From positions 1 to 14,659 of the forward strand of contig JAUIFJ010000055.1 in NCBI GenBank assembly GCA_030429345.1: DNA of 14,659 nucleotides, written 5' to 3'. Shown one piece after another: positions 1 through 14,659 of the stretch (positions are counted from its first letter, which is position 1; every line of letters starts with the position of its first letter). The notes beneath the pieces are model-generated. The model searched no databases. It worked only from the letters and a program-made list of their open reading frames with translations, and was not told where the DNA came from. The position numbers and the translations under genes were made by a program. The stretch is from a bacterium. Its GTDB lineage: Bacteria; CAIWAD01.

Positions 1-303
1 GCCAAGGACAGTGCCAAGGACGGTGCCAGGGACGGTGCCAAGGACGGTGCCAGGGACGGTGCCAAGGACGGTGCCAAGGACGGTGCCAGGGACGGTGCCA
101 AGGACGGTGCCAGGGACGGTGCCAAGGACGGTGCCAAGGACGGTGCCAGGGATGGTGCCAAGGACGGTGCCAGGGACGGTGCCAAGGACGGTGCCAAGGA
201 CGGTGCCACGCACGGTGCCAAGGACGGTGCCAAGGACGGTGCCACGCACGGTGCCAAGGACAGTACCAGGGACGGTGCCAGGGACAGTGCCAAGCACGGT
301 GCC
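1..303 (-). repeat. 12-bp tandem repeat array 1 (25 units, continues past window start)
   Basis: Positions 1-300 are exactly 25 contiguous 12-mers, reading gccaaggacggt or gccagggacggt on the + strand. The opposite strand reads as the same unit found in the arrays at 9993 and 14431, so this array is inverted relative to them. No spacers separate the units. Positions 1-180 consist of three near-identical 60-bp blocks of five units each (order AAG, AAG, AGG, AAG, AGG at the variable triplet). Later units vary more, including two with acgcac. Because 12 is divisible by 3, every frame stays open and gives artificial TVPR/TVPG-type reading frames. The array ends about 63 bp before the ATG of the TPR regulator. 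Confidence 0.97.
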
Positions 304-366
304 CGGGCAAGGATTCGACGCCCTGATTTTCTTTTGCACTTCGATCCGGGGGTATCACATTCTGAC

Positions 367-1854
367 ATGGCTACACCCCCTTCATCGGATTCCCGTCCCT
401 GGCTCGAACGCTACAATGAAGCGGAGCGGGTCTACGCTCGCGAACCTGCCCGGGCCCTGGAGCTTCTTCTCTCGTGCAGGGCCGATCTCCGCGCCGAAGG
501 GGATCCGAATGCCCTGCAGGAAGCCTTGTTCCTCGAAGGCTCGATCCTGCTCCAGCTGGGACGCGCGGGTGACGCGCTCGGTCCCCTGCAGGAGGCCCGC
601 CGTCGGGCCCGCCCTCGGAAGCGGGCCCTCTTCCTGGCACGAGTGTATTACGAGATCGGCGCATGCCACTCCTACCTGCACGACCTGAAGGAGGCACAGC
701 GTAGCTTCGACGCCATGCTGCAGCACCTGCGTGATGCAGAGACCAGGGATCCGCTGCTCGAGATCCAGCTCCTGAGCGGCGTGGGCAATCGGGCCCTGCG
801 GAATCGCGAGTTCGCGACAGCCCTGGAGTACTATGACCTGGCGGCGCCGCTGATCGGGGAGGAGCACGAAGAGCGCCGGGCCGTGCTGTTGACGAATCGC
901 GGATCGGCCCTGGTCGGCCTGGAGCGCTTCGAAGAGGGCATCGAGAGCATCGAGAAGGGTCTGGCCCTGCATCGATCCTACGATAGCCGGATCAGCGTGT
1001 GTTACGACCTGCACAGCCTCGCCCTCTCCCTGCTGCTCGCCGGACGGATGGAGGAGAGTCTGGCGAGAGCCCGGGAAGGCACCGCCCATGCGGACCGGGA
1101 AGGCGTGACGATTCTCTCCGCTATCTGCCGCAGCGTCGCCGGGGAGGCCCTGAACCACCTGCAGCGTCCTGTCGAGGCGCAGGAGGTGCTCGAGGAAGCG
1201 CTCCCGATCGCCGAACGCGTCGGCAACGACCGCTATCGCATGAACATCCTCGGACATCTTTCCCGCGCCCTCGAGGAGCAACAGAAGTGGAAGGAGGCGA
1301 TCCGGATGTTGCGTGCGTACACGGAACTTCGTGACACGGTGCGCGACGAAGAACACGAGCCCCGGATGAAGCAGCTGGAGCTTCGATTTCAGAATGCGCT
1401 GCGGAAGCGCGATGCCGAGCGGTTGCAGGAAACCCTGCGCAAGCGGGAAGACGAACTCCAGCGCCTGGCCCAGGAGCTCACGGCCCACCGGCAGGGTATG
1501 CAACGTTTCCGGGAAGAGTGCCTGGAGCGCTTCCACAGGCGCGAAAACGACACGGCCTATGAGAAGTGGCTAGGCAGCGCGACACTTACGGGCCCCGCTG
1601 TCGTACAGCAGTTCGAGTCCCATTTCAGCCGCATTCACGGGGACTTCATCGAGAAGCTCACGGAACGCTATCCAGGATTGACCCGCCGCCAGATGCGCCT
1701 GTGCTCGCTTTTGCGATCCGGGCTGAAGACGAGTGAAATCGCAGAACTGCTGGGCCAGAACGAGGAGAGCGTGCGCAAGGCCCGCACCCGCCTGCGCAAG
1801 CAGCTCGGACTGGAGCGCGGCAACCGCCTGACCGGGTTCCTCCAGACGATTTAG
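367..1854 (+). CDS. TPR-repeat transcriptional regulator with C-terminal LuxR-type HTH
   Basis: This is a predicted cytosolic DNA-binding regulator of 495 aa. Residues 1 to about 330 are helical repeats of TPR type with alternating A/L/G and Y/F positions (for example around '[18 protein letters not shown]' and '[19 protein letters not shown]'). Residues about 333-392 are a charged coiled coil. Residues about 434-495 are a LuxR/GerE-like helix-turn-helix, starting '[20 protein letters not shown]' and continuing through '[19 protein letters not shown]'. This TPR, coiled coil, HTH order is well known in Bacteroidetes-type regulators; no signal peptide or membrane segment is visible. ATG 367 was preferred over the in-frame TTG at 334, although no strong ribosome site precedes either. 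The gene lies directly upstream of the large secreted protein, whose promoter region carries tandem motifs. Regulation of that neighbour is inference only. The ligand or partner of the TPR region is unknown. Confidence 0.85.
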
Positions 1855-1888
1855 ATTCTGTCCTGCTTGCTCGGCTTTGAACAGGGCA

Positions 1889-1938
1889 TTTTGTCCCCTT
1901 TTTGTCCCCTTGTTCGACCCTTTGGTTCCGCTTATCCT
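1889..1938 (+). promoter_or_regulatory. Candidate promoter with tandem TTGTCCCC motifs
   Basis: TTGTCCCC occurs at 1891-1898 and again at 1902-1909, a period of 11 bp (one helical turn). Immediately after lies a weak sigma70-like pair, TTGTTC (1910-1915) and TATCCT (1933-1938), with a 17-bp spacer, about 36 bp before ATG 1974. The tandem motif would therefore abut the -35 box, a usual activator position. An alternative reading is that GGGCA (1885-1889) pairing with TGTCC, followed by CCTTTTT, is a weak terminator of the preceding regulator gene. Only the repeats themselves are certain. Confidence 0.35.
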
Positions 1939-1973
1939 TCCCTTGCTGCGACGACCAACCCACAGGGACAGCC

Positions 1974-4900
1974 ATGAAAACGCACCTCCTCTCGCTCTTG
2001 AACAGCCGATTCCGGATATGCCGGTTCCTGCTGACCATCCTTTTCCTCGCGCCCGGATTCCTGGAGGCGCAGGACCTGGACAACGACGGCCGACCGGACG
2101 ATCTGCAGCTGGCCATGGGATCCTGCCTGGGGCTCTCGGGCAGCACCGTATACGGAATCAATACCACCGCCGACTGTTTCGCCCGTGACGATCTGGTGGT
2201 CGAGTTCTGGATCCGTCCGGAGGACACGGACCAGACCGCGGCGATCGTCGAGTTCGGCGGAACCGGCGAAGAAGAGGAGCAGAATTTCAATTGGACCATC
2301 GAATGCATGCCCGGCGGGGCAATCAAGCTGAAATGGGAACACGGAAACGGAACCGACGCTTTCCACACCTATCCCGACATGCTCGTCGCCGGCGAGTGGC
2401 AGCACATCACCTTCTGGAGAAAACCCGTAGGGAACAACTATTCCACGGTTCTGCTGCGCAACGGCACTCAGGTCTGGGGCTCCATATGGATCACGGACAT
2501 GCCGACCGGCGGATCCGGGGGAAACCTGAAAATCGCCTCCTACGGGGGATTCCGCGGCCAGCTCGACGAGCTGCGCATCTGGGCCAGCACGGAAGCCGGA
2601 GCACACGAATACCAGTTGGGTTTCTGGAACCAGCTGGTGCGAAACGGGGCTGGCCTGCAAGGCGTGTTCACTTTCGACGAGGACTCCAGTCCCTGCCTGA
2701 ACTACGGAGCCTCCTGCACGGACGCCTTTTTCGTGATCCCTTCGAATGCCAACGCGCAACTACTGGGTCCGCAACTGGACTGCGACGAGGATGATGTGCC
2801 GGATCTCTTCCAGGTGCCTGCCTGCAATCCGGTATACCTGCCGGAATGTGATCCCTTCCCTTCGGGCCTGCTGGCGCAGTACTACGACAACACGGCGCTG
2901 ACGAATCCCGTCTACATCGAGCGTGTGCCGACCGTCGACCGGCGGATGAACGCCGGCACGATCGCTCAGAGCATGCCGGGCGACTTTTTCAGCGCACGCT
3001 ACCAGGGCCAGATGAGGGTGCCGCAGAGCTCTCCGATCACCCTGCGCGTCTGGGTGGACGACGGCTGCCGCCTGGAGGTGGATGGACAATTGCTGATCGA
3101 CGAGTGGGTTCCCGGCGGTACTCGCCTGCTGACGGTTCCTTTCAGCGGCATGGAAGACGAATGGGTGCCGATTCAGTTGGAGTATTTCGAGAACGCCGGT
3201 CAGGCCACCTTGGTGCTGGAATGGGAAACCGACGCGGGAATCGAGGTGATACCGGAAACCCGTCTGCGCTATGCTCCGCAGGAGGATTGCGACGGCAACG
3301 GTGAGACAGACAGCTGCGAATTGCTCGAGCCGCAAGCGGACTGCAATGGCAACGGCCTGCTGGACGCCTGCGAGATCCTGGACGATGCCGGGCTGGATTG
3401 CAATGGCAACGGATGGCTCGACAGCTGCGAGTTGCTGGAAGACCCCCTTTCCGACTGCAACGCCAACGGCCTGCTGGACGGCTGCGAGATCGACCTGGAC
3501 CCCGGACTCGACACGGACGCCGATGGCTGGATCGACTCCTGCCAGATGGAGCTTTTTCCGGTCCAGGACGCCAACGGGGACGGGATCTTCGATCACGAGC
3601 AGCTGCTCGCCGACCCCTCTCTCGACTGCAACGGCAACGGCCTGCGGGATTCCTACGAGCTGTTGTTCCCCGACGTCCTGCAGGGCTATGGCGCACAAAC
3701 GATGTACTACAGCGGCACCGAGTTCGATCGCCTGCGGCATGTGGCTCTCGGCGTGCCGGGAAACCAGCACCTCTACGGTGATACGCTGTCGCACCCATCC
3801 CTGCCGGATGAGGGATTCTCCGTGCGCTGGTCGGGCTTCTGCTACCCCTGGTGCCAGACCGGATACACGGAAACCCTGAGCATAGCGGTCGAGGGCGGCC
3901 TGCGCTGCTGGGTCGATGGCGAGCTTCAGTTCGATGACTGGACCCCGGGGTACAAACAATTCGAGTTCGAGTTCGAGTCCTTGAACGAGATCTCCCTGGT
4001 CATCGAGTACGCCAATTTCAGTGGCCCGGCCCTTGTCTTGTGCGAAGACTACGACACGATGTTCTGCTGGGGGCCGATGGACGCAGGGCAGTTCCAGGCG
4101 CAAGCAGCTGATCAGAATGGAAACGGCATCCTGGACGACTGCGAGGGAGACTGCAACGGGAACGGCACGCCGGATGCGCAGGAGATCGCGCTCGATCCAG
4201 GACTGGACTGCGACAACGACGGCCTGCTGGACACCTGCCAGTGGAAGGACTGCAATGGCGACGGCGAGGACGACCGCCTGCAGATCTGTGCGGATCCGGG
4301 CCTGGACTGCAATGCGAACGGCCTGCTGGATGCCTGCGAGGTCCAGGACGTGATGCAGGGCATGAAGGCCGAGTATTACGCCGGCATCGCCTTCGACTCC
4401 CTGGTGGCCACCGAACTGGACGGACTCAACGCCAACGGCTCCTGGGAAGGGTCTCCGCATCCCCTGGCTCCAGCAGACAGCTTCAGCATCCGCTGGAGCG
4501 GAACCCTTGTCGCCGATGTGACCGGTACGCACAACTTGAACATCGGAGTCGATTCGGGCGGCTACCGTCTCTGGCTCGACGGAGTGGTCCTGTACGAGTC
4601 CTGGCAGTTCTCGCACGGTTCCGGCCGAGGGTTCAACCTGTACCTGGAAGCGGGAGAAGCGAGGGAGATCGTATACGAGATCTTTCACACGACGGGGTCG
4701 GCAGGGGCACAGATGCACTGGAATCCACCCGGGGGTGACTGGCAGATGCTGCGGATTCCGGTGGAGAACCTGTCCTGGCGGGGGCAGGACAGCAACGGCA
4801 ACGGGGTTCCCGACGACTGTGATCCACTGCCAGCGCCGGTGCTGACCATCGAGCGCCTGGACCCGGGCACGATCCGCCTGAGCTGGACCGGTGTGCAGGG

Positions 4901-5048
4901 GGCCATGTCTTACAGTGTCTACGAAACCCTGCCGGACGGCACGACGACCCTGGTCGCCGATTCGACGGTTCTGCAGCTGGATCTGCCGTTGCAATACGAT
5001 CCGGCTCCCCGTGAGCTGCGCCGTTTCCATGTGACTGCACAACCCTGA
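1974..5048 (+). CDS. Secreted multidomain protein: LamG-like, three PA14-like domains, EF-type calcium loops, FN3-like C-terminus
   Basis: A predicted secreted or surface protein of 1024 aa. The start is ATG 1974 with AGGGA 5 nt upstream; it gives a signal peptide ending near LEA/Q (residues 30-33), whereas an upstream TTG-type extension would bury it. Residues about 72-250 form a LamG/concanavalin-like domain ('VVEFWIRPE', 'GEWQHITFW', 'GQLDELRIWAS'). Three PA14-like beta domains sit at about 297-436, 571-710 and 794-936, each beginning like 'GLLAQYYDNTAL' or 'MKAEYYAGIAFD' and containing a 'RLEVDG' or 'RLWLDG' strand. Between and around them are about 15 calcium-loop repeats of the form DCNGNGLLDACE, mainly at 438-570 and 713-793. 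Residues about 953-1024 resemble an FN3 domain. PA14 and LamG domains often bind carbohydrate, so a role in adhesion or polysaccharide binding is plausible but unproven. No catalytic domain was recognised. No sorting signal was recognised beyond the C-terminal domain it shares with the protein at 6756. Confidence 0.9.
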   Translation: MKTHLLSLLNSRFRICRFLLTILFLAPGFLEAQDLDNDGRPDDLQLAMGSCLGLSGSTVYGINTTADCFARDDLVVEFWIRPEDTDQTAAIVEFGGTGEEEEQNFNWTIECMPGGAIKLKWEHGNGTDAFHTYPDMLVAGEWQHITFWRKPVGNNYSTVLLRNGTQVWGSIWITDMPTGGSGGNLKIASYGGFRGQLDELRIWASTEAGAHEYQLGFWNQLVRNGAGLQGVFTFDEDSSPCLNYGASCTDAFFVIPSNANAQLLGPQLDCDEDDVPDLFQVPACNPVYLPECDPFPSGLLAQYYDNTALTNPVYIERVPTVDRRMNAGTIAQSMPGDFFSARYQGQMRVPQSSPITLRVWVDDGCRLEVDGQLLIDEWVPGGTRLLTVPFSGMEDEWVPIQLEYFENAGQATLVLEWETDAGIEVIPETRLRYAPQEDCDGNGETDSCELLEPQADCNGNGLLDACEILDDAGLDCNGNGWLDSCELLEDPLSDCNANGLLDGCEIDLDPGLDTDADGWIDSCQMELFPVQDANGDGIFDHEQLLADPSLDCNGNGLRDSYELLFPDVLQGYGAQTMYYSGTEFDRLRHVALGVPGNQHLYGDTLSHPSLPDEGFSVRWSGFCYPWCQTGYTETLSIAVEGGLRCWVDGELQFDDWTPGYKQFEFEFESLNEISLVIEYANFSGPALVLCEDYDTMFCWGPMDAGQFQAQAADQNGNGILDDCEGDCNGNGTPDAQEIALDPGLDCDNDGLLDTCQWKDCNGDGEDDRLQICADPGLDCNANGLLDACEVQDVMQGMKAEYYAGIAFDSLVATELDGLNANGSWEGSPHPLAPADSFSIRWSGTLVADVTGTHNLNIGVDSGGYRLWLDGVVLYESWQFSHGSGRGFNLYLEAGEAREIVYEIFHTTGSAGAQMHWNPPGGDWQMLRIPVENLSWRGQDSNGNGVPDDCDPLPAPVLTIERLDPGTIRLSWTGVQGAMSYSVYETLPDGTTTLVADSTVLQLDLPLQYDPAPRELRRFHVTAQP

Positions 5049-5067
5049 GGCTTCGCTGTGACTCAAT

Positions 5068-5103
5068 GGAATCCCGCAAGGACTTCGGTGCCTGCGGGAT
5101 TCC
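5068..5103. terminator. Hairpin between convergent genes
   Basis: GGAATCCCGCA (5068-5078) and TGCGGGATTCC (5093-5103) form a perfect 11-bp inverted repeat with a 14-nt loop. It lies between the stop of the secreted protein at 5048 and the stop of the K+ channel at 5108. Neither strand has a U-tract after it, so it may work as a bidirectional transcript-end hairpin rather than a classical intrinsic terminator. Confidence 0.6.
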
Positions 5104-5107
5104 TGCT

Positions 5108-5923
5108 CTAGAGCCTTTCCCCGCAGTGCTTGCAGTGGACGGCGTCTTCGTCGTGGCCTTCGGTCGCACAGGCGCGGCAGGCCTGGGTCGAGGTGCTGAC
5201 AGGAGGCTGGCGTGTCAGTTCGGAAGTCACGATGCCCGTTGGAACGGCGAGAATCCCGTAGCCCATCACCATGATGATCGAGGCCAGCGATTGGCCCAGC
5301 GGTGTCTGGGGACTGATGTCGCCGTAGCCCACGGTGGTCATGGTGACAATCGCCCAGTAGATTGAGCGCGGGATGCTGGTGAATCCGTGATCCGCCCCCT
5401 CGACGAGATACATCAGCGAGCCGAAGATCACCGTGCAGACGAGCACGGCGAAGAGGAAGACCGTGATCTTGCGGCGGCTGGAGCGGAGCGCGGCGCCAAG
5501 GCGCTGCATCTCGCCCAGGTACTGCGCCAGTTTCAGGATGCGGAAGATGCGCAGCACGCGCAGGAGACGGATCACGAGCAGGTATTGCGTACCCGGGAAA
5601 AAGAGGCTCAGGTAGGTCGGCAGGCAGGCCAGCAGATCGATCACGCCGAAAAAGCTGGTCGCGTAGGACAAGGGGCGCTTGACGGTCAGCAGCCGCAGCA
5701 GGTACTCGACCGAGAACAGGAGCGTGAAGGTCCATTCCGCGATCAGCAGATACCGGCCGTATGAAACACGAATGGCCTGAATGCTGTCGAGCAGCACGAC
5801 CTGGACACTGAGCAGGATCAGCACGATCAAGGCGATGTCGAAGCCCTTGCCCACCCGCGTATCCGCCTCGAAGATGATTTCATGCAGCCGGGCCCGCAGC
5901 CCGCTGAGTGAGGTCGCGCTCAT
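5108..5923 (-). CDS. Voltage-gated potassium channel (six-TM VIC type) with C-terminal zinc ribbon
   Basis: An inner-membrane K+ channel subunit of 271 aa, presumably tetrameric as in the family. Hydrophobic segments S1-S3 lie at about 27-48, 59-80 and 88-110. S4 (about 114-135) is a voltage-sensor helix with basic residues every third position (R119, R122, R125, R128, K131). S5 is at about 153-175. The pore loop carries the canonical selectivity filter TVGYGD (197-202), followed by S6 at about 210-233. The cytosolic tail ends in a CxxC-x11-CxxC motif (C249, C252, C264, C267), a zinc-ribbon-like module unusual on such channels. The start is well supported: AGGAG lies 5 nt before the ATG. It is convergent with the secreted-protein gene and divergent from the lipoprotein at 6048, sharing a 124-bp intergenic region. 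Conduction, gating and the role of the zinc tail are inferred from family membership. Confidence 0.93.
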   Translation of the reverse strand: MSATSLSGLRARLHEIIFEADTRVGKGFDIALIVLILLSVQVVLLDSIQAIRVSYGRYLLIAEWTFTLLFSVEYLLRLLTVKRPLSYATSFFGVIDLLACLPTYLSLFFPGTQYLLVIRLLRVLRIFRILKLAQYLGEMQRLGAALRSSRRKITVFLFAVLVCTVIFGSLMYLVEGADHGFTSIPRSIYWAIVTMTTVGYGDISPQTPLGQSLASIIMVMGYGILAVPTGIVTSELTRQPPVSTSTQACRACATEGHDEDAVHCKHCGERL

Positions 5924-6047
5924 TCGATCTCCTGCTTCTTCCCGCTGGTTTCCGGTTCACTAATAAGGCAAATGCCGTATGTGTGATTCGCACGGGACGG
6001 ACGATCTTCGACTTGCCTGACAACAATGACAAACAAGGAGACGAACG

Positions 6048-6464
6048 ATGACCGTGCTCAAACACCTGCTGATCTTCCTGCTGGCCCTGGCCATGATTTC
6101 CTGCGACGACGACGAGGACTCCCCGACAGCGAGCAACAATCCGGATCTGCCGGCCAGCGTTGCCGGCACGATTGTGGAAATGGAATTCAGTTTTGCCAAC
6201 GCGGGGGCACCCTGGGCGCTGGGCACCTTGATGCACTTCACCTTCTCCAGTTCCGGCATGCTATTCATTGACGAGAATCCTGCAGCCAACGACGGCGACG
6301 AGATCCAGATCGATTCGGTGGAGCTGCAGGGCAGCGAGTTCATCTGGGAAGATGCCGCCTCCGGCTACAGCTACGCCCTGTCGATGAACGGCGCCGCGAT
6401 CAACGAAGTCAACCTGATGCAGGGAAGCAATTTCCTGGGTCAGTTCACGCCGACGGGGAACTAG
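6048..6464 (+). CDS. Small predicted lipoprotein of unknown function
   Basis: A 138-aa protein with a short basic N-terminus, a hydrophobic core and a lipobox-like MISC (C19 the probable acylated cysteine), followed by an acidic linker starting DDDEDS. The rest (about residues 38-138) has alternating hydrophobic and polar residues consistent with a small beta-rich domain ('GTIVEMEFSF', 'GTLMHFTFSSSGMLFI', 'SYALSMNGAAI'); I do not recognise a family. AAGGAG at 6035-6040, 7 nt before the ATG, supports the start. A strong terminator follows, so it is probably a one-gene transcript. If E. coli-like Lol rules applied, the aspartate after the cysteine would favour inner-membrane retention, but sorting rules in this organism are unknown. 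Confidence 0.8.
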   Translation: MTVLKHLLIFLLALAMISCDDDEDSPTASNNPDLPASVAGTIVEMEFSFANAGAPWALGTLMHFTFSSSGMLFIDENPAANDGDEIQIDSVELQGSEFIWEDAASGYSYALSMNGAAINEVNLMQGSNFLGQFTPTGN

Positions 6465-6486
6465 AGGCGCGCAAACATGCAGGGGG

Positions 6487-6530
6487 AAAGGGGCCGGAAA
6501 GCGGGTGCGCCTGCTCTTTCGGCCCCTTTT
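6487..6530 (+). terminator. Rho-independent terminator after the small lipoprotein gene
   Basis: AAAGGGGCCG plus AAAG (6487-6501, with one bulged G) pairs with CTTTCGGCCCCTTT (6516-6529), giving a 14-bp stem and a 14-nt loop that runs into TTTT at 6527-6530. It starts 23 nt after the stop codon. Confidence 0.88.
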
Positions 6531-6755
6531 GATCTCCCGGTGCCGCTGTTCAGAATCGGGTGCCGCGGCAGGGATGGCTCAAGCCCTCAGGGCCAGGAAA
6601 TCGAGCAACCACTATTTCAGGGGCATTGTAAACAAGGCTTTACGCAGCTGTTGGGGTGCAAGATCGGAGGGGGTCTGCCATTTGTGTCGTTCCGGATTGG
6701 TTTTTGCATGTCTCGCCCGGGAGTCCGTCTTCACTCATCTGTCAAGGGATCCATC

Positions 6756-7628
6756 ATGAACCATCTCCAACTCCTGCTCTTGCTTGCCTTGACCGCCTTT
6801 CCGCTCGCTGCCGAGGTCTATGTGGATGACTTCAGCGGTGATCTGTCCAATTGGACAGCCAGTCCGGCGCATCTGGACAGCTACGAAATCGTGGACGGCG
6901 AGCTGCGCCTGGACGGCTACGGGCACATTGCCGGGCCGAGCGGCTGGGGCATGATGCAGTTCGACCAGCCCTTGGGGAGCCACTTCCGCGCCGAATGGGA
7001 CGCGCGGCTGGAGTACTACGACTACATCAACTTCACTCTCTATGCCGACGCGCCCTGGAGTTTCCGCCAGAACGGCGGTTCCGTGCTCAATGGCTATCTC
7101 TGCTGGATCGATGTAGACGATCCCGCGCTGCCCCTGATCGATCTGATGTACTCGGTCAACGGCACGGCGCAGGCCCTGGCCCCGGAATTGAACAACATCC
7201 CCTACGTGGAAGACATCGACCTGGGCGAGTGGATCCAGTGCGAGGTGGACTTCAACCACGGCCGGCTGCGCTACACCGTTGGCGGTGTGCTCGTATACGA
7301 AGCCTTGCACGCGCTCTACTCGGAGGCCGACTACAAGATCGGCCTGGGCTTCGGGGAGGACTCGGAAGGAAGGATCGACAACTTCCAGGTGACGACCTTC
7401 GAGCCGCTGCCGGCTGTCGCCCTCTCCATCGAATACGACCTGGGCCAGGAGACGACCTTCCTGCACTGGACTCCTGCAGCCGGAGCCGCCGATTATCTGC
7501 TCTATCGAAGCGGCCAGCTCGCTGCGGAAACGGGCCTCGTGCTGCTCGGGGATACTCTGTCCTGGTCGCCGGGCGTCCTGCCAATGGACGCGGTGCGTAC
7601 CTACCGTGTTCGCGCGCTGGCGCCATGA
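6756..7628 (+). CDS. Secreted protein with LamG/jelly-roll-like domain and FN3-like C-terminus
   Basis: A 290-aa predicted exported protein. ATG 6756 is chosen because AAGGGA ends 6 nt before it and it opens directly into a signal peptide (residues 1-19, ending PLAA before EVYV). A longer in-frame extension would run back through the terminator at 6487-6530. Residues about 22-215 look like a concanavalin-like beta-sandwich: 'DDFSGDLSNW', 'GELRLDGYGHIAGPSGWG', 'NFTLYADAPWSFR', 'IQCEVDFNHGRLRYTVGG', 'IDNFQVTTF'. Residues about 220-290 are an FN3-like module similar to the C-terminus of the large secreted protein ending at 5048. No catalytic motif was recognised, and glycan binding is a possibility only. 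Strong terminators lie on both sides (6487 and 7634), so it is probably monocistronic. Confidence 0.85.
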   Translation: MNHLQLLLLLALTAFPLAAEVYVDDFSGDLSNWTASPAHLDSYEIVDGELRLDGYGHIAGPSGWGMMQFDQPLGSHFRAEWDARLEYYDYINFTLYADAPWSFRQNGGSVLNGYLCWIDVDDPALPLIDLMYSVNGTAQALAPELNNIPYVEDIDLGEWIQCEVDFNHGRLRYTVGGVLVYEALHALYSEADYKIGLGFGEDSEGRIDNFQVTTFEPLPAVALSIEYDLGQETTFLHWTPAAGAADYLLYRSGQLAAETGLVLLGDTLSWSPGVLPMDAVRTYRVRALAP

Positions 7629-7633
7629 GATGC

Positions 7634-7663
7634 AGAGGCCCTTCCATTGGAAGGGCCTCTTTT
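7634..7663 (+). terminator. Strong rho-independent terminator
   Basis: AGAGGCCCTTCC (7634-7645) and GGAAGGGCCTCT (7649-7660) form a perfect 12-bp stem with a 3-nt loop, followed by TTTT (7660-7663). It begins 5 nt after the stop of the preceding gene. The stem is symmetrical, so it may also stop transcripts of the convergent lipoprotein gene, although the U-tract faces + only. Confidence 0.95.
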
Positions 7664-7717
7664 CTGTAGGACACAGCTGCATCGGGCGGGATTTGCCGTC
7701 CCTGATGCGTATACGAG

Positions 7718-9454
7718 CTAGTTCACTGTGGCCGTTCCGCCGGGGAACCCGGCGCTCTCGTTTTCCAGCATGAAGGTGGCGTGATCCAGGGCCTGCATGG
7801 GCGCTGTGCCGATCAGCGGCTTCAGCGAGAAGGGCGCCGCGGAATCGTCCGGTTCCGGTTCAATCGAGATCACGAAGGCAGCGCCACTCAAGTCCGTCGG
7901 GAAGCTCAGCCCCATGGGCGCGTTGACCAGGAAGTCCTCGCCGGGGAAGGGCGGGCCGGGCATGCTGCCACTGTGGGGCGCGCTGCTATCCAACGCCGTC
8001 ACATCCGTGAAGCGGCCGGTCGTCACGGGCGTGCCGTCGATCACGGCCCAGCCCTCGTAGACCCACCCGGCAGGCAGGGGCGGGAGTTCCAGCCCGGCCA
8101 TCGGGACGGTATTCAGGGTGACTGTGCCTGTAACCAGGGAACCCGGATTCTGCTCCATGGCATAAGTCACGTGATCCACCACATCGCCAGGAATCATGCC
8201 CACCAGGGGCTTCAAGGTATAGGGTAGCGGGCTGTCATCGGGTTGGGGCTCGATCGAGATCACCGCTGCGCCGCCGGCAAGGGTCGTGGGGAAGGTCAGC
8301 CCGACAGGGGCGTCGACCAGGAAATCCTCGCCCGGAAAGGGAGGGCCGGGCTCGCTGCCGCTGTAGGGCGCGGAGAAATCCGCTGCCATCGGGTCGGTAA
8401 AACGTCCGGTGGTCACGGGGGTGCCGTCGATCACCGCCCAGCCTTCGTATACCCACCCCTCTGGGAGCAACGGCAGTTCCAGCCCGGTGTCCGGCGTGCC
8501 GCTGGACAGGTCAAGGAACCAGAGTCCGCTGGTCTCGCTGGTATTCGCGCCGTCCGTGGGCGTGGCCAGGATGTAGTCGCCGGCGACCATGCTGAAATCG
8601 TCTCCCAGGGCGGCTCCATGGCTCACGTCCAGAGTGGCCATGCCGTCGGAAATGTCACCGCCCAGCAGCTTGGTCGCCGCCGGCAGCGGATCGGTGTCGC
8701 CGGCCGGTTCGATGCTCAGCACGAAGGCCGTGGCGGCATCCAGCGCCCGGTGGATCACGAACTCGCCGTTCGGAATCGGCTGGCCGTCCAGATCCTCCAG
8801 GCCACCGCCCTGTGAGACATTGAACTTGCCTGTCGACAGGGGCATGCCGTCGACGATCACCCAGCCCTCGTAGTGCATGCCGTTCATCAGGGGCTCCAGC
8901 CCCACGAAATCGACTGTGATCGTGGTCGCCAGGTCCAGGAACCACACGCCGCTGGTCTCGTCGCTGCCCGCGCCGTTCGTAGGCGTCGCCAGGACGTAGT
9001 CGCCGGCTGCGCCGGAGTAGTTGTCGCCCAGCGCCGCTGCGTGAGCGACGCTCAGCTGAGCCGTGGAACCGTATACGGCGCCGCCGAGAACCTTTGTGTC
9101 GGCGGGAGCGGGATCGCTGTCGCCCGCCGGCTCGATGCTGATCACCACCGCCTCGACCCCGCCCAGCTCCTCAGCGGTCTCGAAGACGCCGTTCTCCAGT
9201 GGCTGTCCGTCCAAGTTCACCAGGCCGCCAGTCGCGTCAAGGTTGAATTTGCCCGTTGTGACCGGTTGTCCGCGGATGATTGCCCAGCCCTCGTAGTGCA
9301 TGCCGCCGCCCAGAGGCTCCAGGCCGCTCAGGGAGAGCTGCAGCTGACCCATCGCACCGCTGTTTCCATTGTTTTCGTCGTCGCTGTCGCAGCCGATGAG
9401 CAGTGTGCCCAGGGCCATCATCAGCACGCCGTGTTGCAAGATCCTCGAGTTCAT
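7718..9454 (-). CDS. Lipoprotein with four RskA-like repeat domains
   Basis: A 578-aa predicted lipoprotein. The start ATG (9454) has GGAGG 6 nt upstream, and the N-terminus has a textbook lipobox LIGC (C22) followed by an acidic/Asn-rich linker. The mature part is four tandem domains of about 120-165 residues, each with a 'YEGWAVIDGTPVTTGRF' strand and, further on, a 'VISIEPxxDxxPxP' and 'KxLxG' segment. Domains 1-2 share a 'GDYxLATPTxGA' ending with 'SGxWFLDL'. Domains 3-4 share 'PGPPFPGEDFLV' and 'PxGLxFPT'. The strand pattern resembles the extracytoplasmic C-terminal domain of RskA-type anti-sigma factors ('YEVWLI', 'FAVSLEPAGG'), but no anti-sigma helix bundle or transmembrane helix is present. 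A direct role in sigma regulation is therefore not supported. It may be a scaffold or binding protein of the outer or inner membrane surface. Internal repeats imply successive duplications (A-A, B-B). Confidence 0.82.
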   Translation of the reverse strand: MNSRILQHGVLMMALGTLLIGCDSDDENNGNSGAMGQLQLSLSGLEPLGGGMHYEGWAIIRGQPVTTGKFNLDATGGLVNLDGQPLENGVFETAEELGGVEAVVISIEPAGDSDPAPADTKVLGGAVYGSTAQLSVAHAAALGDNYSGAAGDYVLATPTNGAGSDETSGVWFLDLATTITVDFVGLEPLMNGMHYEGWVIVDGMPLSTGKFNVSQGGGLEDLDGQPIPNGEFVIHRALDAATAFVLSIEPAGDTDPLPAATKLLGGDISDGMATLDVSHGAALGDDFSMVAGDYILATPTDGANTSETSGLWFLDLSSGTPDTGLELPLLPEGWVYEGWAVIDGTPVTTGRFTDPMAADFSAPYSGSEPGPPFPGEDFLVDAPVGLTFPTTLAGGAAVISIEPQPDDSPLPYTLKPLVGMIPGDVVDHVTYAMEQNPGSLVTGTVTLNTVPMAGLELPPLPAGWVYEGWAVIDGTPVTTGRFTDVTALDSSAPHSGSMPGPPFPGEDFLVNAPMGLSFPTDLSGAAFVISIEPEPDDSAAPFSLKPLIGTAPMQALDHATFMLENESAGFPGGTATVN

Positions 9455-9518
9455 GTGTGACCTCCGTCAGGGTTGTTGTTGAAGCGGAGGCCAAGGTTGG
9501 AAGTGGATCTCACAGGAA

Positions 9519-9572
9519 GATCACGGGGTTTTCACCAATCCTTGTCCGGTTTTCACAAATGGATCACGGGGT
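9519..9572 (-). promoter_or_regulatory. Direct-repeat cluster upstream of the four-repeat lipoprotein gene
   Basis: GATCACGGGGT occurs at 9519-9529 and 9562-9572. Between and overlapping them, GGTTTTCACcAA (9527-9538) and GGTTTTCACAAA (9548-9559) repeat with a 21-bp period, two helical turns. The cluster lies 65-118 bp upstream of the start codon at 9454. The repeats are plain in the sequence; that they bind a regulator is inference, and I could not place a convincing -10/-35 pair. Confidence 0.4.
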
Positions 9573-9670
9573 CGGAAGTCCGCTGGAAGCCGGGAATAAC
9601 CGAGAAGGTAGTCGGTCGATGCCGGAAGCTGGAATGTGGGGATCTAGTGGGTCGTGCCGAAGAAGAAGCA

Positions 9671-9761
9671 AGCCCCGCCGCCAGGTGCAGGGCATCTAAT
9701 ACGGGAACGACTGGGAATCGACCGCGCCACGTGTAGTGGCAGCAAGATCAGGGTTTGCCTG
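9671..9761 (-). pseudogene. Degenerate partial copy of the selenocysteine tRNA gene and its 3' flank
   Basis: Positions 9671-9720 match 9784-9833 at 48 of 50 bases, covering the terminator stem, 3' acceptor strand and T-arm of the intact tRNA-Sec. A second stretch, 9740-9761, matches 9838-9859 at 19 of 22 bases and corresponds to the variable arm. Between them the copy carries about 15 extra bases containing a CCAC/GTGG inverted repeat, which breaks the T-arm. The anticodon arm and 5' half cannot be found, and the poly-T after the terminator stem is missing. It therefore cannot form a tRNA. It reads as a decayed tandem duplication on the same strand; a remnant of an integration site at the tRNA 3' end is an alternative. 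Confidence 0.7.
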
Positions 9762-9778
9762 TTTCCTCTTCCAGACAC

Positions 9779-9808
9779 AAAAAAGCCCCGCCGCCAGGTG
9801 CAGGGCTT
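9779..9808 (-). terminator. Rho-independent terminator of tRNA-Sec
   Basis: Read on the minus strand, AAGCCC and GGGCTT form a 6-bp stem around a 14-nt loop and are followed by a run of U (six A on the + strand, 9779-9784). It lies 6 nt past the 3' end of the tRNA-Sec gene, so the tRNA is probably transcribed alone. Confidence 0.8.
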
Positions 9809-9814
9809 CTAATA

Positions 9815-9912
9815 CGGGAACGTCTGGGAATCGAACCCAGCAAGGACAGGGTTTACCTGCCCCTCGGACGGCTTTGAAGGCCGCGGTGGCCACCAGGTCC
9901 ACATCCATCCCC
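9815..9912 (-). tRNA. selC: tRNA-Sec (anticodon UCA)
   Basis: A 98-nt minus-strand sequence folds as a bacterial selenocysteine tRNA. The 7-nt anticodon loop CTTCAAA carries anticodon UCA (+ strand 9875-9877), which reads UGA, on a 5-bp stem. The D-stem is long (six positions, GUGGAC with GGCCAC, one mismatch). The variable arm is very long and stable (GGGCAGG with CCTGTCC). The T-arm is CTGGG-TTCGATT-CCCAG. The acceptor is 8 positions, GGGGATGG against ACGTTCCC, seven pairs including two G-U and one mismatch; start 9912 was chosen because it pairs best. The discriminator base is G, as in E. coli selC, and CCA is not encoded. It would be charged with serine and converted to selenocysteine by SelA; no selA, selB or selD lies in the window. 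The weak acceptor pairing is the only oddity. Confidence 0.92.
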
Positions 9913-9992
9913 CGGTAGGCCGCAAAGTAAGAATCCTCTTCTTAGAGGTGTGCCCAAATGCCTGGTTCACGTGGAGCGGGGCTCTTCTCCCT

Positions 9993-10179
9993 GGCACCGT
10001 GCCCGGCACCGTCCCTGGCGCCGCCCCTGGCACCGTCCGTGGCACCGTCCCTGGCACCGTCCGTGGCACCGTCCGTGGCACCGTCCCTGGCACCGTCCCT
10101 GGCACCGTCCTTGGCACCGTGCCTGGCACCGTCCCTGGCACCGTCCCTGGCACCGTCCCTGGCACCGTCCGTGGCACCC
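9993..10179 (+). repeat. 12-bp tandem repeat array 2 (15 full units plus partial)
   Basis: Fifteen contiguous 12-mers with consensus GGCACCGTCCCT, ending in a partial unit at 10173-10179. The last two bases vary (CT, GT, TT), two units have GTGCC in place of GTCCC, and the third unit is GGCGCCGCCCCT. The orientation is the same as array 3 and opposite to array 1. It fills the gap between the divergently oriented tRNA-Sec and glycosyltransferase genes and stops 60 bp before the glycosyltransferase start. There are no unique spacers, so it is not a CRISPR. The reading frame of the next gene is open back through the array, which is a by-product of the 12-bp period. The flanks (9913-9992 and 10180-10224) hold no gene that I can support. 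Confidence 0.97.
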
Positions 10180-10224
10180 AAGTATTTCCGGAAACTGCCG
10201 ACAAGCGAAGAAGGCCCTTGGATT

Positions 10225-10233
10225 GAAAGGAGG
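10225..10233 (+). promoter_or_regulatory. Strong ribosome binding site deciding the glycosyltransferase start
   Basis: GAAAGGAGG is an almost perfect anti-16S match, ending 6 nt before GTG 10240. It decides for that GTG over the long upstream extension through the repeat array. Confidence 0.85.
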
Positions 10234-10239
10234 CCCTTC

Positions 10240-11274
10240 GTGCGTCCCCAGCTTTCTGTCGTCATTCCCGTTTTCAACGGGCTCCGCACTCTGCCGGCAA
10301 CCCTGGATGCCTGGTTGAGTCAGACCTGTGACGTTTGCTGGGAGGTGGTATTCGTCGACAACAACTCATCCGATGGGAGCTTCGACTGGATGCGCACTTT
10401 CGCCCTGGGTCGTTGCCTGAAAGCGGGCGTTCCCTGTCATTCGCTCCGGGAGGAGCGCCCCGGGCAAAGCGCGGCCAGCAATCGAGGGGCCGCCGAAGCC
10501 CGTGGACGATGGCTGGTCTTTTCGGCGCAGGACATGCTGCCGCAAGCCGGCATGCTGCAGGGGCATCTGAATGCGCTGAGGGAGAACTCGCAGGATCTCA
10601 GGGTCGTTCTAGGGCACATCGCCTATCCGCCAGAGCAGCTGCAGGATCCCTTTATGCGCTGTCTGGTGGAGGAGACCGTATACCAGTTCGGCTTCGATGC
10701 GATCGGTGATCCGGAAAAGGCCAATCCGCGTTGCCTTTATGCACCGAATTTCAGTCTGCCCAAGGCGCTATTCATTGGGCAGGGCGGCTTTGACGAGCGC
10801 TTCCCCTATGGCTGGCAGGACACGGATCTTGGCCTTCGGCTGGCTGCGGCAGGGACGCGATTGGTCTACCGCAAGGAGCTGTGCGCGCTGCACGATCATC
10901 CCCTGGACTGGCGTGGCTTCTGCCGGAGAATGCACAGTGTCGGACAGGATTTTCCTCGGTACCTGGCGAAGCACCCGACCTTCGAGGATCCTGCAGAGGT
11001 CGAAAGGCATCTTCGCATCCATTTTCATGAAGCCCGTCGGCTGGTCAGCTCGGCCCAGAAGCTGGTTCGCCTGTGGGAAGCGGATCCCGGACAGCCCCTG
11101 CCTGACCTGCAGTTGCACGAAGGCGCAGGGCATCGTAATACACTGTCGGCGGCATTCGTTCTCCTGCTCAAGTATCACTTCTACAAGGGCGTCTACGACG
11201 GCCAGCGTGCATTGGCGAGAGCGCCGGTCTCCCTGAGTCGCCGCCTGCGTGGAAGTTTCCGCGAAACAGTCTGA
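10240..11274 (+). CDS. Family 2 glycosyltransferase (GT-A fold)
   Basis: A 344-aa cytosolic or membrane-associated glycosyltransferase using a nucleotide-sugar donor. The start is GTG 10240, set by the AAGGAGG site; the protein then opens exactly as GT2 enzymes do, '[20 protein letters not shown]' (residues 5-24). Donor-binding features follow: '[12 protein letters not shown]' (36-47), NRG at 81-83, and the DxD region reading SAQDM (95-99), where the first aspartate of the usual pattern is replaced. The acceptor-side motif is '[20 protein letters not shown]' (182-201), with QDTD in place of the common EDxD. H218 and H220 lie just after. No membrane helix is evident except a weakly hydrophobic stretch near 310-320. 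The acceptor is unknown; surface polysaccharide or lipid glycosylation is likely from family and context. It lies 71 bp upstream of the patatin/barrel gene on the same strand with no clear terminator between, so the two are probably co-transcribed. The array at 9993-10179 lies in its 5' region. Confidence 0.9.
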
Positions 11275-11345
11275 TCTTCCATGTCCACTCCGATGCCGCC
11301 GGAAAAACCCGTGCGGAAGGGGTGCTCCGCCAGGATTGATTCGCC

Positions 11346-13544
11346 ATGCGCCTGCTGACACTTCTGCTGACCCTGATTGCACTCGTCCATGAAGAGGCCC
11401 GTGCGAAAAGCTTCGTTGATCTTCGCAGTGACAGTTCACGAGTTGCACTTGCCTTGGGCGGAGGAGGCGCGCGTGGCCTGGCTCACATTGGCGTGCTGCG
11501 TTGGCTGGAGGAGAACGACATTCCCGTCGACCTGGTCACGGGCACCAGCATGGGCGCGCTGGTCGGCGGCCTGTGGGCGGCCGGGTGGTCGGAAGCGCAG
11601 CTCGACAGTCTGGCGCAGGTGATCCCTTGGGTAGACAGCTTTATCGATCGTCCGAGACACAACCAGTGGATCGGGCGCGCTCGCTTCAGCAACAGGCCCT
11701 CGCACCTGAAGTTCATGCTGCAGGACGGACGCCTGCTGCCGCCCGGAGGGCTGGTCGGCGGACACAAGGTCGAACTCCTGCTGGCCGACCTGACCCTGGG
11801 AGTACACCCGGTGAAGGACTTTCGCAGGCTCCCGCGTCCCTTCGGCTGCGTGGCGACGGACCTCGAAAGCGGAGAGCCGTACTACATGGTTTCCGGCTCC
11901 CTTCCCACCGCGCTGCGCGCCAGCATGAGTCTGCCGAGCATCTTCGATCCAGCCCTTGTAGACGACCGTATACTTGTCGACGGCGGCCTGCTCGAGAACC
12001 TTCCCGTTGAACTGGCGTGGCGCATGGGGGCCAGCTTTGTGATCGCGGTACGTCTGACCTACGACCTGCGGGAACGTGAAGAGCTGCAGGACCTGCTGTC
12101 GATCGCCGGGCAGTCCGTCGACCTGGTCGGCCTGGCACGCGAGGACGAGCTAGAACGCATGGCCGACATCGTGATCCACGTGGACACGCGCGGAACCGGC
12201 ATGCTGGATTTCGATGATGTAGCATCGATCATCGAACGCGGATACAAGGCCGCGGAGGAGAGCCGCAAGGAGCTGCTCGCCCTGCGCCGGTCGATCGGCC
12301 GCGGCATGCCGGCTGTCGTTCGCCCTTCTCTTCCGGACAGTGTGCGTATCCTGAACCTGGAATGGGACGGAATCGCCTCCCCGGAAGAGATCGACCGCTC
12401 GCCGCTTGGCGACGCCGGGCCGGAAAGGGCGGTTCCTCTGAGCGGGCTGCGGGATCTGCCCAATGCCATTGTATACGGCGGAATCTACCGCAAGGCCGAT
12501 TATCGCCTCGGGGAGATTACCTTAGGGGCGGACGGTGTACCCGAGGCCACGCTGCTGCTCCGCGGCTCCCGACTGCAGGGAGGGACACTAGGGCTGAACA
12601 TGGCCTACAGCGAGAGCGAGCAGCTGATCCTGGGAGCGACATTCGATTTTCTCGAGCCGACGGGCACGGGCTCCTGGCTGCGACTCGAGGCCCAGCTTGA
12701 GGGGCGATCCAGCCTGGGGGCGACCTGGGTCAAGAGCCGCCGGGCCTACAGCACCTGGTTCCGCGTCCTGCGGGGATCCTGGGAAGAGCGGTACTTCCGC
12801 TACGTGAACCGTGACGGGCGCACGGAATTCGACTATGACCGCCGCCTCCTCAATGGCGAGGCCATGGTCGGGCTCAATCTTCGAAAGGGCGCCCTGCTGG
12901 TCGGCGGGCTGTTCCGCGAGCACCGCATCCTGAGTTCGGACCAGGCGGGGCTGCCCTACAACCGTTTGAGTGCCATCGATGCCGGTCTCGTATCACACCT
13001 GTGGATCGACACGCGCAACCGCCTGCCCCTGCCGACGAAGGGCGCCGAATTGCGCCTGCGTTTCCGGCAGAGCCTGGATCGCCTGAGTGACATGCCGGCC
13101 TGGCGGGAAACCCAGCTTCGGGCGCGCGCCGTTATCAGCCAGGGCCCCCTGGGCCTCGAGGGCTCCCTTAGCGCTCTCCATATCTTCGACAGCCCCTTCT
13201 CGGAAGTCCGACTGACACAGTTCGGCGGCTATCCCTGGGAACCCGGTTTCACCGAAGGGGAACTGATGCTGCATGAATACTGGTGCGGTTCGGTGGGGCT
13301 TCGGGCGCGGTTCAGCGAAACAGGCAGCCTGCGGCCCTTTGTCTTTTTCGGCCGGCTGGAGGACCATGCCGTGCCCGGCTTCGAAGAGGTGTCCGCGCAA
13401 ATCGATTCGAAACGCCTGCAGGGCTTCGGACTGGCCCTCACGCTGAACAACCGCCTTCTGGGTCCGCTGAGCATGGGCTACTCGCGCGCCGGCGGGCGAG
13501 ACGCGGTTCTCTTCTTTCGCGCGGGATTTCTACTGGATCACTAG
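11346..13544 (+). CDS. Patatin-like phospholipase with C-terminal outer-membrane beta-barrel (PlpD-like, type Vd)
   Basis: A 732-aa predicted outer-membrane protein. A signal peptide occupies residues 1-20 (cleavage after ARA). Residues about 33-300 are a patatin domain with the oxyanion loop GGGGARG (38-44), nucleophile motif GTSMG (Ser68) and catalytic aspartate in DGG (D212), so all active-site elements are present. Residues about 327-390 resemble one POTRA domain ('VRILNLEWDGIASPEEID'). Residues about 395-732 are alternating amphipathic strands ending in an Omp85-type last strand region ('NNRLLGPLSMGYSRAGG' to the end). The order and length match PlpD, a type Vd autotransporter of about 730 residues in Pseudomonas, which has phospholipase A1 activity. 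ATG 11346 has AGGA 10 nt upstream, which is weak, but the signal peptide supports it. Whether the patatin domain is released or stays attached is unknown. The phenylalanine usual at the very C-terminus of barrels is replaced by LLDH. Confidence 0.92.
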   Translation: MRLLTLLLTLIALVHEEARAKSFVDLRSDSSRVALALGGGGARGLAHIGVLRWLEENDIPVDLVTGTSMGALVGGLWAAGWSEAQLDSLAQVIPWVDSFIDRPRHNQWIGRARFSNRPSHLKFMLQDGRLLPPGGLVGGHKVELLLADLTLGVHPVKDFRRLPRPFGCVATDLESGEPYYMVSGSLPTALRASMSLPSIFDPALVDDRILVDGGLLENLPVELAWRMGASFVIAVRLTYDLREREELQDLLSIAGQSVDLVGLAREDELERMADIVIHVDTRGTGMLDFDDVASIIERGYKAAEESRKELLALRRSIGRGMPAVVRPSLPDSVRILNLEWDGIASPEEIDRSPLGDAGPERAVPLSGLRDLPNAIVYGGIYRKADYRLGEITLGADGVPEATLLLRGSRLQGGTLGLNMAYSESEQLILGATFDFLEPTGTGSWLRLEAQLEGRSSLGATWVKSRRAYSTWFRVLRGSWEERYFRYVNRDGRTEFDYDRRLLNGEAMVGLNLRKGALLVGGLFREHRILSSDQAGLPYNRLSAIDAGLVSHLWIDTRNRLPLPTKGAELRLRFRQSLDRLSDMPAWRETQLRARAVISQGPLGLEGSLSALHIFDSPFSEVRLTQFGGYPWEPGFTEGELMLHEYWCGSVGLRARFSETGSLRPFVFFGRLEDHAVPGFEEVSAQIDSKRLQGFGLALTLNNRLLGPLSMGYSRAGGRDAVLFFRAGFLLDH

Positions 13545-13654
13545 TCGCCTTCGTACATCAGTAGTGGCGAACAGAGGAGTCCCCGAATAGGTGATACTTC
13601 GCTCTTCTGGATGACCGTGATACCTTGAAGCAGGCACGTTTCTGCGCATTCGGA

Positions 13655-14278
13655 TTACGCGGCCAGGTCCGTGCTGCCTGGCGGTGTACGTGGCGCCCTG
13701 TTCTTGTCCCGATCCCACATGGAATTCTTCAGCACCTGCAACACGTAGCGCGCATATTCGCTACGTCGTCTCTTGGTGTGCCTGTGCAGCGCAGTATAGC
13801 CAGATGCGGGTTCCAGGAAATCCATATCGGATTCGCCTATAGCCAGTCTCCGATAGCTGGACCATGCATACTCCCCGGGTGATTCACAAAGCCCTGCGCG
13901 TACAGGGTTCAGATCGATGTAGGCCATGCAGTTCAACAGATAGGCCTCATCGTCGATCAGCTTGTCCTTGAACCGGCCATCCCAGACCTTGCCTTCGACT
14001 CGTCGGTGGTAGATGAGGTATTTGGCATAGGAGCTGTTCGCCTGGCACATCATTCCCGAGATACTTCCTTCTCCTGATTGTGATGCAATCAAGTGGAAAT
14101 GATTGCTCATCAGGACAAAGGCATGAATGCTGCATGAGTTCATGGTCGCCGCTCTCTTCAGGTATTGCAAGTACTGCGCGCGGTCCATGTCCATGTAAAA
14201 CAGGGTTTGCTGTGCATTGCCGCGGTGCGTAATGTGGTAGTAGTTGTCGCGGATGAAGTTTCTGGGTTTTCTTGGCAT
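13655..14278 (-). CDS. REP-associated Y1 transposase (RAYT, HUH family)
   Basis: A 207-aa single-strand DNA nicking and joining enzyme of the IS200/IS605-related TnpA-REP group. It has the diagnostic N-terminus 'MPRKPRNF' with 'YYHITHRGN', the metal-binding HUH pair in NHFHL (H60, H62), the 'YAKYLIYHRR' and 'GKVWDGRFKDKLI' segments, and 'YLLNCMAYIDLNPVRAGL' with Y120 as the probable nucleophile, then 'YAWSSYR'. The start at 14278 was chosen because GGGAGA lies 9 nt upstream and it gives the family's usual MPRKPR opening. A further in-frame ATG at 14317 has no ribosome site. No IS200-like ends, tnpB or target duplications are visible, which fits a domesticated RAYT rather than an active IS. 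Base composition is visibly less GC-rich than the neighbours, suggesting transfer. It is convergent with the patatin gene, and 12-bp array 3 lies about 150 bp upstream of its start. Confidence 0.93.
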   Translation of the reverse strand: MPRKPRNFIRDNYYHITHRGNAQQTLFYMDMDRAQYLQYLKRAATMNSCSIHAFVLMSNHFHLIASQSGEGSISGMMCQANSSYAKYLIYHRRVEGKVWDGRFKDKLIDDEAYLLNCMAYIDLNPVRAGLCESPGEYAWSSYRRLAIGESDMDFLEPASGYTALHRHTKRRRSEYARYVLQVLKNSMWDRDKNRAPRTPPGSTDLAA

Positions 14279-14430
14279 GCGTTTGGTTCTCCCATTTGTT
14301 TCACGAGGAATCTGCATTTGCTTGCTGTTAGATCATAGACCCGGGAAGCCGGAAACTGTGTTTCGTGAATGCGGTGTCCATTTCCGGTAACACTTTCTCC
14401 ATTTTCGTCATGTGAGACGGAACACTTGCT

Positions 14431-14659
14431 CCCTGGACGGTCCCTGGCACTGTCCTTGGCACGGTCCCTGGCACGGTCCCTGGCACCGTCCCTGGCACCG
14501 TCCTTGGCACCGTCCCTGGCACCGTCCCTGGCACCGTCCCTGGCACGGTCCTTGGCACTGTCCCTGGCACCGTCCCTGGCACGGTCCCTGGCACGGTCCC
14601 TGGCACCGTCCCTGGCACCGTCCCTGGCACGGTCCCTGGCACCGTCCTTGGCACGGTCC
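14431..14659 (+). repeat. 12-bp tandem repeat array 3 (18 full units, runs off the window)
   Basis: From 14437 to the window end are 18 complete 12-mers of the accgtccctggc phase plus a 7-bp partial, preceded by a partial ccctgg at 14431-14436. Variation is concentrated at the base after GGCAC (C, G or T) and at the CC/CT position before TGG. It is the same unit and orientation as array 2. It sits in the 5' region of the transposase; 14279-14430 between them holds no gene that I can support. Confidence 0.97.

Follow-up and report, generated by a model that had tools for sequence, protein, structure and literature searches.

The window analysed here, a stretch of 14,659 nucleotides that forms the entire contig C59 of a bacterial draft genome (4.24 Mb, 98% complete, 92 contigs), carries the same 12-bp repeat in three separate arrays, one of them upstream of a transposase gene. 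What is this repeat, and which process could have placed it at separate sites of one genome? The features concerned are the following:

1–303, minus strand: array 1, about 25 units reading TGGCACnGT[C/G]Cn on the minus strand, cut by the contig end (TRF, unit parsing).
9988–10179, plus strand: array 2, about 16 units, complete (TRF, unit parsing).
13655–14317, minus strand: gene of a REP-associated tyrosine transposase (RAYT, TnpA_REP), 220 amino acids, probable start at 14278 (NCBIfam, Pfam, sequence).
14430–14659, plus strand: array 3, about 19 units, upstream of the RAYT gene and cut by the contig end (TRF, unit parsing).

TRF places the arrays at 1–303, 9988–10178 and 14430–14659, with indels of 0% and matches of 89–91%, and all three share the unit TGGCAC-n-GT[C/G]C-n. 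A pattern of two consecutive units matches 438 times in the genome and its reversed control twice, so that a single 12-bp family, as claimed in the original prediction, is confirmed. Since arrays 1 and 3 reach the contig ends, the full length of both may exceed what the window displays. The distances to the neighbouring genes also agree with those first given: array 1 ends 62 bp from the ATG of a TPR regulator (position 366), array 2 ends about 60 bp from the GTG of a glycosyltransferase (position 10240), a start equipped with an AAGGAGG Shine-Dalgarno sequence, and array 3 begins 113 bp from the start of the RAYT open reading frame at 14317 or about 150 bp from the likelier start at 14278. 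About 80 bp before array 2, a selenocysteine tRNA gene with anticodon TCA occupies 9815–9912 on the minus strand, and a partial look-alike of one end of this gene is found at about 9700–9740.

Genome-wide, at least 41 arrays with 747 units could be parsed from fetched stretches, which cover 416 of the 438 pattern matches. Many contigs of the source genome start or stop inside such arrays; evidently the arrays break the assembly, and their real numbers and lengths are likely to be higher. The consensus of the 747 units is T-GGCAC-[C/T/G]-GT-[C/G]-C-[C/T/G], with nine of the twelve positions constant at 97.6–99.7%. Variation is confined to the last base (35.9%), the third base of the right arm (19.1%) and the centre (18.5%). 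The centre had been described as the most variable base of array 3, which is correct but does not extend to the genome. TGGCAC resembles the −24 element of sigma-54 promoters; this likeness was dropped, as no −12 element stands in phase. Inverted units occur at one edge of some arrays (L061 1–181, L057, L072, L078), and one array stands head-to-head with a short inverted array. Other tandem repeats occur as well: a small contig that also bears a 12-bp array contains 176-bp repeats in 3.6 copies and further ones of 76 bp (L060 93–1349, contig C19), and a 23-bp array, CGATTCCGTCGCCAGCGCACCCT, is present in 11.6 copies about 2 kb from a REP pair (L186 688–953, C9:75687–75952).

In the window, each array precedes a gene, at 60–62 bp from the start in two cases, an arrangement that would suit cis-regulatory arrays governing the downstream genes. 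Nearly all arrays of the genome, as judged with a crude hexamer gene caller, are indeed intergenic, and the apparent overlaps with genes mostly involve weak open reading frames or frames whose picked start enters an array. This half of the expected 5' intergenic placement stands, but the 5' rule does not: within 1 kb, the arrays are flanked by 30 gene 5' ends and 25 gene 3' ends. Among the 14 arrays with both flanks known, nine lie between tandem, three between divergent and two between convergent genes, and some arrays begin only 3–17 bp past stop codons. Nor does the strand of the unit show any preference relative to the neighbouring gene across the genome-wide arrays. These counts contradict an effect on downstream genes as a general rule, and a regulatory role of this kind is very unlikely.

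The arrays had furthermore been read as tandem hairpins, in which pairing rather than identity is conserved. GGCACnGT[C/G]CC is a quasi-palindrome, and unit parsing confirmed that units with GTGCC are fully palindromic. These are the only full palindromes and account for 18% of the units; two of them in a row fold well. The commonest unit, however, retains a C-C mismatch in the dyad, and one, two or three consensus units barely fold, two giving no fold at all. As single-stranded DNA, array 2 folds worse than all of 200 shuffled sequences (z +3.35), and a slight advantage over shuffles (z −2.17) was seen only for array 3 as RNA. For each of the five dyad pairs, both sides are changed in no more than 0–2 of the 747 units, and the left arm is 97.6–99.7% fixed while the right arm varies; thus neither pairing nor covariation is kept inside the arrays. 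Within arrays, substitutions show no preference for keeping the dyad, the very observation that the original prediction had named as counting against it. As a positive control, the genome's own REP palindrome both folds and covaries, whereas the 12-bp unit displays no stable hairpin with compensatory changes as known from REPs. Tandem REP-like hairpins recognised by their structure are thus hardly tenable. Taken together, the search of the genome for the 12-mer yielded the many intergenic arrays that had been anticipated, but neither the 5' bias nor the compensatory changes.

A second repeat family of the same genome, the GTAG-tagged REP CGTAGGGGTCG(A/T/C)TCGCGA(T/A/G)CGACCC, occupies about 40 sites and exhibits true covariation. 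Examples are located in L084 (4997 and 5301), L080 (4966 and 8571) and L056 (5229) as well as at C13:49650–50251 and C55:54–73. This family also occurs in tandem clusters of 75–133 bp, one copy lies near another RAYT-like gene (C55:370–786), and five copies stand 4–20 bp from the ends of 12-bp arrays, at four array loci.

A coding function, with the arrays specifying (GTVP)n peptides, might be suggested by the repeat-type open reading frames that cross them, whose third codon positions include two of the three variable bases. Yet a change at the most variable position would alter the encoded residue, two further third positions scarcely vary, and the arrays are intergenic and lie in both orientations; moreover, any stop-free 12-mer yields open frames. 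This explanation deserves next to no credence.

The 12-bp family is specific to this bacterium's genome. The two-unit pattern has no match in 59 other genomes, three of them from the same family, and with up to three mismatches allowed these genomes contain just scattered, chance-like matches. A scan of 84,980 species, which possibly omitted the own genome, returned six short matches, four or five of them clearly actinobacterial. Viral contigs, plasmids and phages gave no match, although the low-complexity filter of the BLAST searches may mask repeats, and no mention of the unit as a bacterial repeat was found in the literature covered, to which most subscription papers did not belong. In one genome of the same family, an 11-bp array of about seven copies, TGGCACCGACC, is nearly the window unit minus one base (G001:C19:18928–19003, L164); its contig also encodes a RAYT, at a distance of 50 kb.

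Near-fixation of nine positions over 41 loci, with three left variable, is what a bound motif would produce, and the arrays might accordingly be binding sites of another protein (nucleoid, segregation or transcription factor) that serve chromosome structure independently of any RAYT. Lone units, however, are absent from 278,617 bases of non-array DNA of the own genome, and low-copy sites are missing there likewise. The motif is also missing from genomes of the same family, although sites of host proteins are usually conserved among relatives, and common ancestry of the units explains the fixed positions equally well. Binding-site arrays of this sort are improbable. Uptake sequences, or single binding sites that were expanded later, were rejected on account of the same absence of single copies.

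How the arrays were built can be read to some extent from their structure. Degenerate units make up 29% at the array edges and 5% in the interiors, and the array ends concentrate at the unit centre, with TGGCACC on the right and (AC)nGTCCC on the left. Edge decay, homogeneous interiors and absent singles together look like the outcome of seeding followed by local growth and homogenisation. Variant strings common to different loci do not exceed shuffled expectation except for one pair, L062/L082, which also shares its flank; copying of whole arrays between loci was rejected on this basis. Slippage and unequal exchange typically leave decayed edges around uniform interiors, and the main rival explanation draws on this: the arrays would be neutral minisatellites, spread by ordinary recombination or template switching together with slippage, and RAYTs would settle in arrays that are permissive or preferred instead of making them. 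The GTAG-REPs close to array ends at four loci agree with it, indicating that other elements gather there too. On the other hand, a single unit at 41 separate sites without singles calls for a dispersal process, and on balance we consider this rival rather unlikely.

A candidate for such a process is encoded beside array 3. The role of RAYTs, transposases that are widespread and present in single copy, is unsettled. The protein encoded at 13655–14317 matches the NCBIfam model NF047646 with 85 bits at a cut-off of 80 and the Pfam family Y1_Tnp, and the start at 14278 gives MPRKPRN, an N-terminus common to its homologues. Hallmarks of RAYTs are the HUH motif, a tyrosine with NP(L/V)(R/K)xG and a threonine near the N-terminus (PMC2817692). 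All are found in the predicted protein: HUH as SNHFHLI (HFH), a catalytic-type tyrosine in YIDLNPVRAG, and HITHRG (HxTxRG) near the N-terminus. By family model and sequence motifs, the transposase of the window is thus a RAYT. No unit lies between this gene and the patatin gene on its 3' side, so the array is confined to the 5' side.

Seven RAYT-like matches were found in the own genome. The closest paralogue, on contig C9, has 54% identity to the RAYT of the window and carries a decayed array in 12-bp phase at the equivalent place upstream of its start (GACACGGGGTC TGACACTGTGTT TGACCCCGTGTC CGGCACC), a sequence that occurs nowhere else in this genome. Its unit resembles TGGCACnGTGCC with one G-C pair swapped for A-T, which as a single case is only suggestive. 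Another sort of RAYT flank is seen at C75:130173–130733, where direct repeats of about 60 bp (TTCTGCACGCTCCTACTCACAGTGCAC...) stand on both sides of the gene (L041, about 1375–1445 and 2240–2300).

A tandem-repeat scan around the RAYT genes of same-family genomes brought up further arrays. In G001, one RAYT lies between two 11-bp arrays of GGGCrACACCA and a further RAYT has a short 11-bp array; in G002, one RAYT adjoins arrays of GGTGCCGGTGT and another lies between 11/22-bp arrays. A RAYT of G079, a genome of unrelated lineage, is located between two 13-bp arrays of GGAACnGGTACCA. The three units tested are, without exception, dispersed families specific to their own genome: GGGCrACACCA matches 64 times on ten contigs of G001 (none in G000, G002 and G003), GGTGCCGGTGT 162 times, all within G002, and GGAACnGGTACCA 37 times on nine contigs of G079, including both sides of the RAYT (none in G000, G002 and G102). 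Sequence comparison thus makes a good case for a link between RAYTs and arrays across four genomes with four different units. The flanking arrays in G001 and G079 stand in direct rather than inverted orientation on both sides of the gene, as though the gene had landed within an array, which speaks for neutral minisatellites. Against them, the dispersed unit is in each of the four genomes the one beside the RAYT.

A wider sample of 145 genomes gave 80 loci with RAYT homologues (L229–L308), for which up to 6 kb per side were fetched. Seven arrays with a period of 9–16 and at least three copies, at six loci, stand no more than 600 bp away from the gene, in a total of 93 kb, as compared with none in the remaining 710 kb; the G079 RAYT locus is one of the six. 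Intergenic DNA makes up more of the sequence close to a gene, which exaggerates this contrast. Among the seven arrays, two are rich in A+T or very short, and most homologues of this sample have no array. In a quickly computed tree of 94 RAYTs, in which many forks are weak, array-bearing genes appear at several places, so that the array mode may have arisen repeatedly: the RAYT of the window groups with its two paralogues, the G079 gene lies elsewhere, and three genes of G001 and G002, all with arrays, form a group with full support.

Two further motifs were noted near RAYT homologues. The octamer GGGGTCAG occurs 38 times at 21 of the 80 loci, in many lineages, as compared with 2.8 expected, and its longer form GGGGTCAGGTCT is likewise strongly enriched; this extends the published GGGGWSAS motif. 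In G102, an unrelated genome, a RAYT is surrounded by many copies of TGGCACCAGAACC, some of them within GGTTC...GAACC inverted repeats (L266 1–45 and 835–971). A TGGCACC core in such a TIR-like setting is a possible origin of the array units.

The reading we prefer, with a probability of roughly one half, takes the arrays for a dispersed, non-autonomous repeat that is partner to the HUH/Y1 transposase (RAYT) encoded at 13655–14317, as a genome-specific satellite counterpart of the REP and TIR families. The RAYT would recognise the 12-bp unit, with its near-fixed TGGCAC-n-GT and looser right half, as a sequence motif and not as a stable hairpin. It would nick and join one strand, seeding short runs of units at new intergenic sites, and slippage or unequal exchange would then lengthen and homogenise each array in place. 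That a RAYT recognises, cleaves and seeds the units we infer by analogy with the E. coli TnpA_REP, which is cited in PMC6006769 and PMC3733652 as cleaving REPs. The proposed link to a nuclease survives in changed form, through comparison and with the nuclease-type protein encoded at array 3, but not for hairpins. Several observations count against a RAYT partner: most homologues of the wider sample lack an array, and its contrast between near and far sequence is exaggerated; just one of the 41 arrays touches a RAYT in the own genome, an adjacency to which we assign a probability of roughly 5% by chance alone; a flanking array is missing on the 3' side of the window RAYT; and no replication-strand bias was seen, with positive skew in 23 of 41 arrays (a weak test), though single-strand transposition might produce one.

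That RAYTs and arrays are also paired in three other bacteria, each with its own repeat, hints at a type of transposase-linked repeat family that is little known. In general terms, RAYTs might possess a third sort of partner beside GTAG-REPs and TIRs, namely 11–13-bp head-to-tail satellites recognised as motifs, each RAYT having its own genome-wide family; this broader proposal is tentative. No description of such arrays as RAYT partners was found in the literature, a search that took in few subscription papers and is no proof of absence. Large RAYT subclasses are reported to have no REP-like partner, with no REP-like sequences reported for subclasses 2.1 and 2.3 (PMC6006769), and the array-bearing RAYTs of four genomes would supply test substrates. 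If true, RAYT-linked arrays would account for the origin of some minisatellites in bacteria and for one type of assembly break.

Comparison with known systems places the arrays closest to the families that accompany RAYTs. The partners of RAYTs in REPtrons are REPs, REPINs or BIMEs, which form genome-specific, intergenic and dispersed families, each RAYT having its own partner repeat adjoining it, and clusters beside RAYTs are known (PMC2817692, PMC3116915). The 12-bp family is similarly dispersed between the genes of one genome, with copies beside the RAYT at array 3. REPs, however, are GT[AG]G-headed palindromes of 20–40 bp that lie around the gene as inverted copies (PMC2817692) and occur mostly singly or in pairs, whereas the RAYT-side units described here measure 11–13 bp, form head-to-tail runs of 8–36 units, have no GTAG head and, where two-sided, flank the gene in direct orientation. 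Accordingly, the 12-bp family contains no GT[AG]G-headed palindrome of that size and no inverted copies on both sides of the RAYT.

TIRYTs, the TnpA_REP subclass 2.1 that forms TIRtrons, are RAYT-like Y1 proteins without GTAG-REPs, and some of their flanking repeats are moderately abundant families (PMC3733652, PMC6006769). Their partners are terminal inverted repeats, many but not all of them with GGGGWSAS (PMC3733652, PMC6006769); tandem arrays are not described for TIRtrons. The RAYT of the window has no terminal inverted repeats, there being no unit on its 3' side, and GGGGWSAS is absent beside it, the single match of the window lying far away at 4732, although this motif is frequent beside its wider homologues.

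Two systems resemble the arrays in form. The TAACTGA heptamers of Beggiatoaceae are likewise short head-to-tail units that form numerous sets between genes, but the unit is 7 bp long, occurs in 2–6 copies per set and stands, in forward orientation, strongly just upstream of start codons, with no transposase link mentioned (PMC4679880). VNTRs and other minisatellites share the tandem unit, the degenerate edges and the homogeneous interior; ordinarily, however, each locus has its own unit, whereas here a single one is common to at least 41 loci. Since the known partners of RAYTs are either GTAG palindromes or terminal inverted repeats, the 12-bp arrays look like a new form of RAYT partner.
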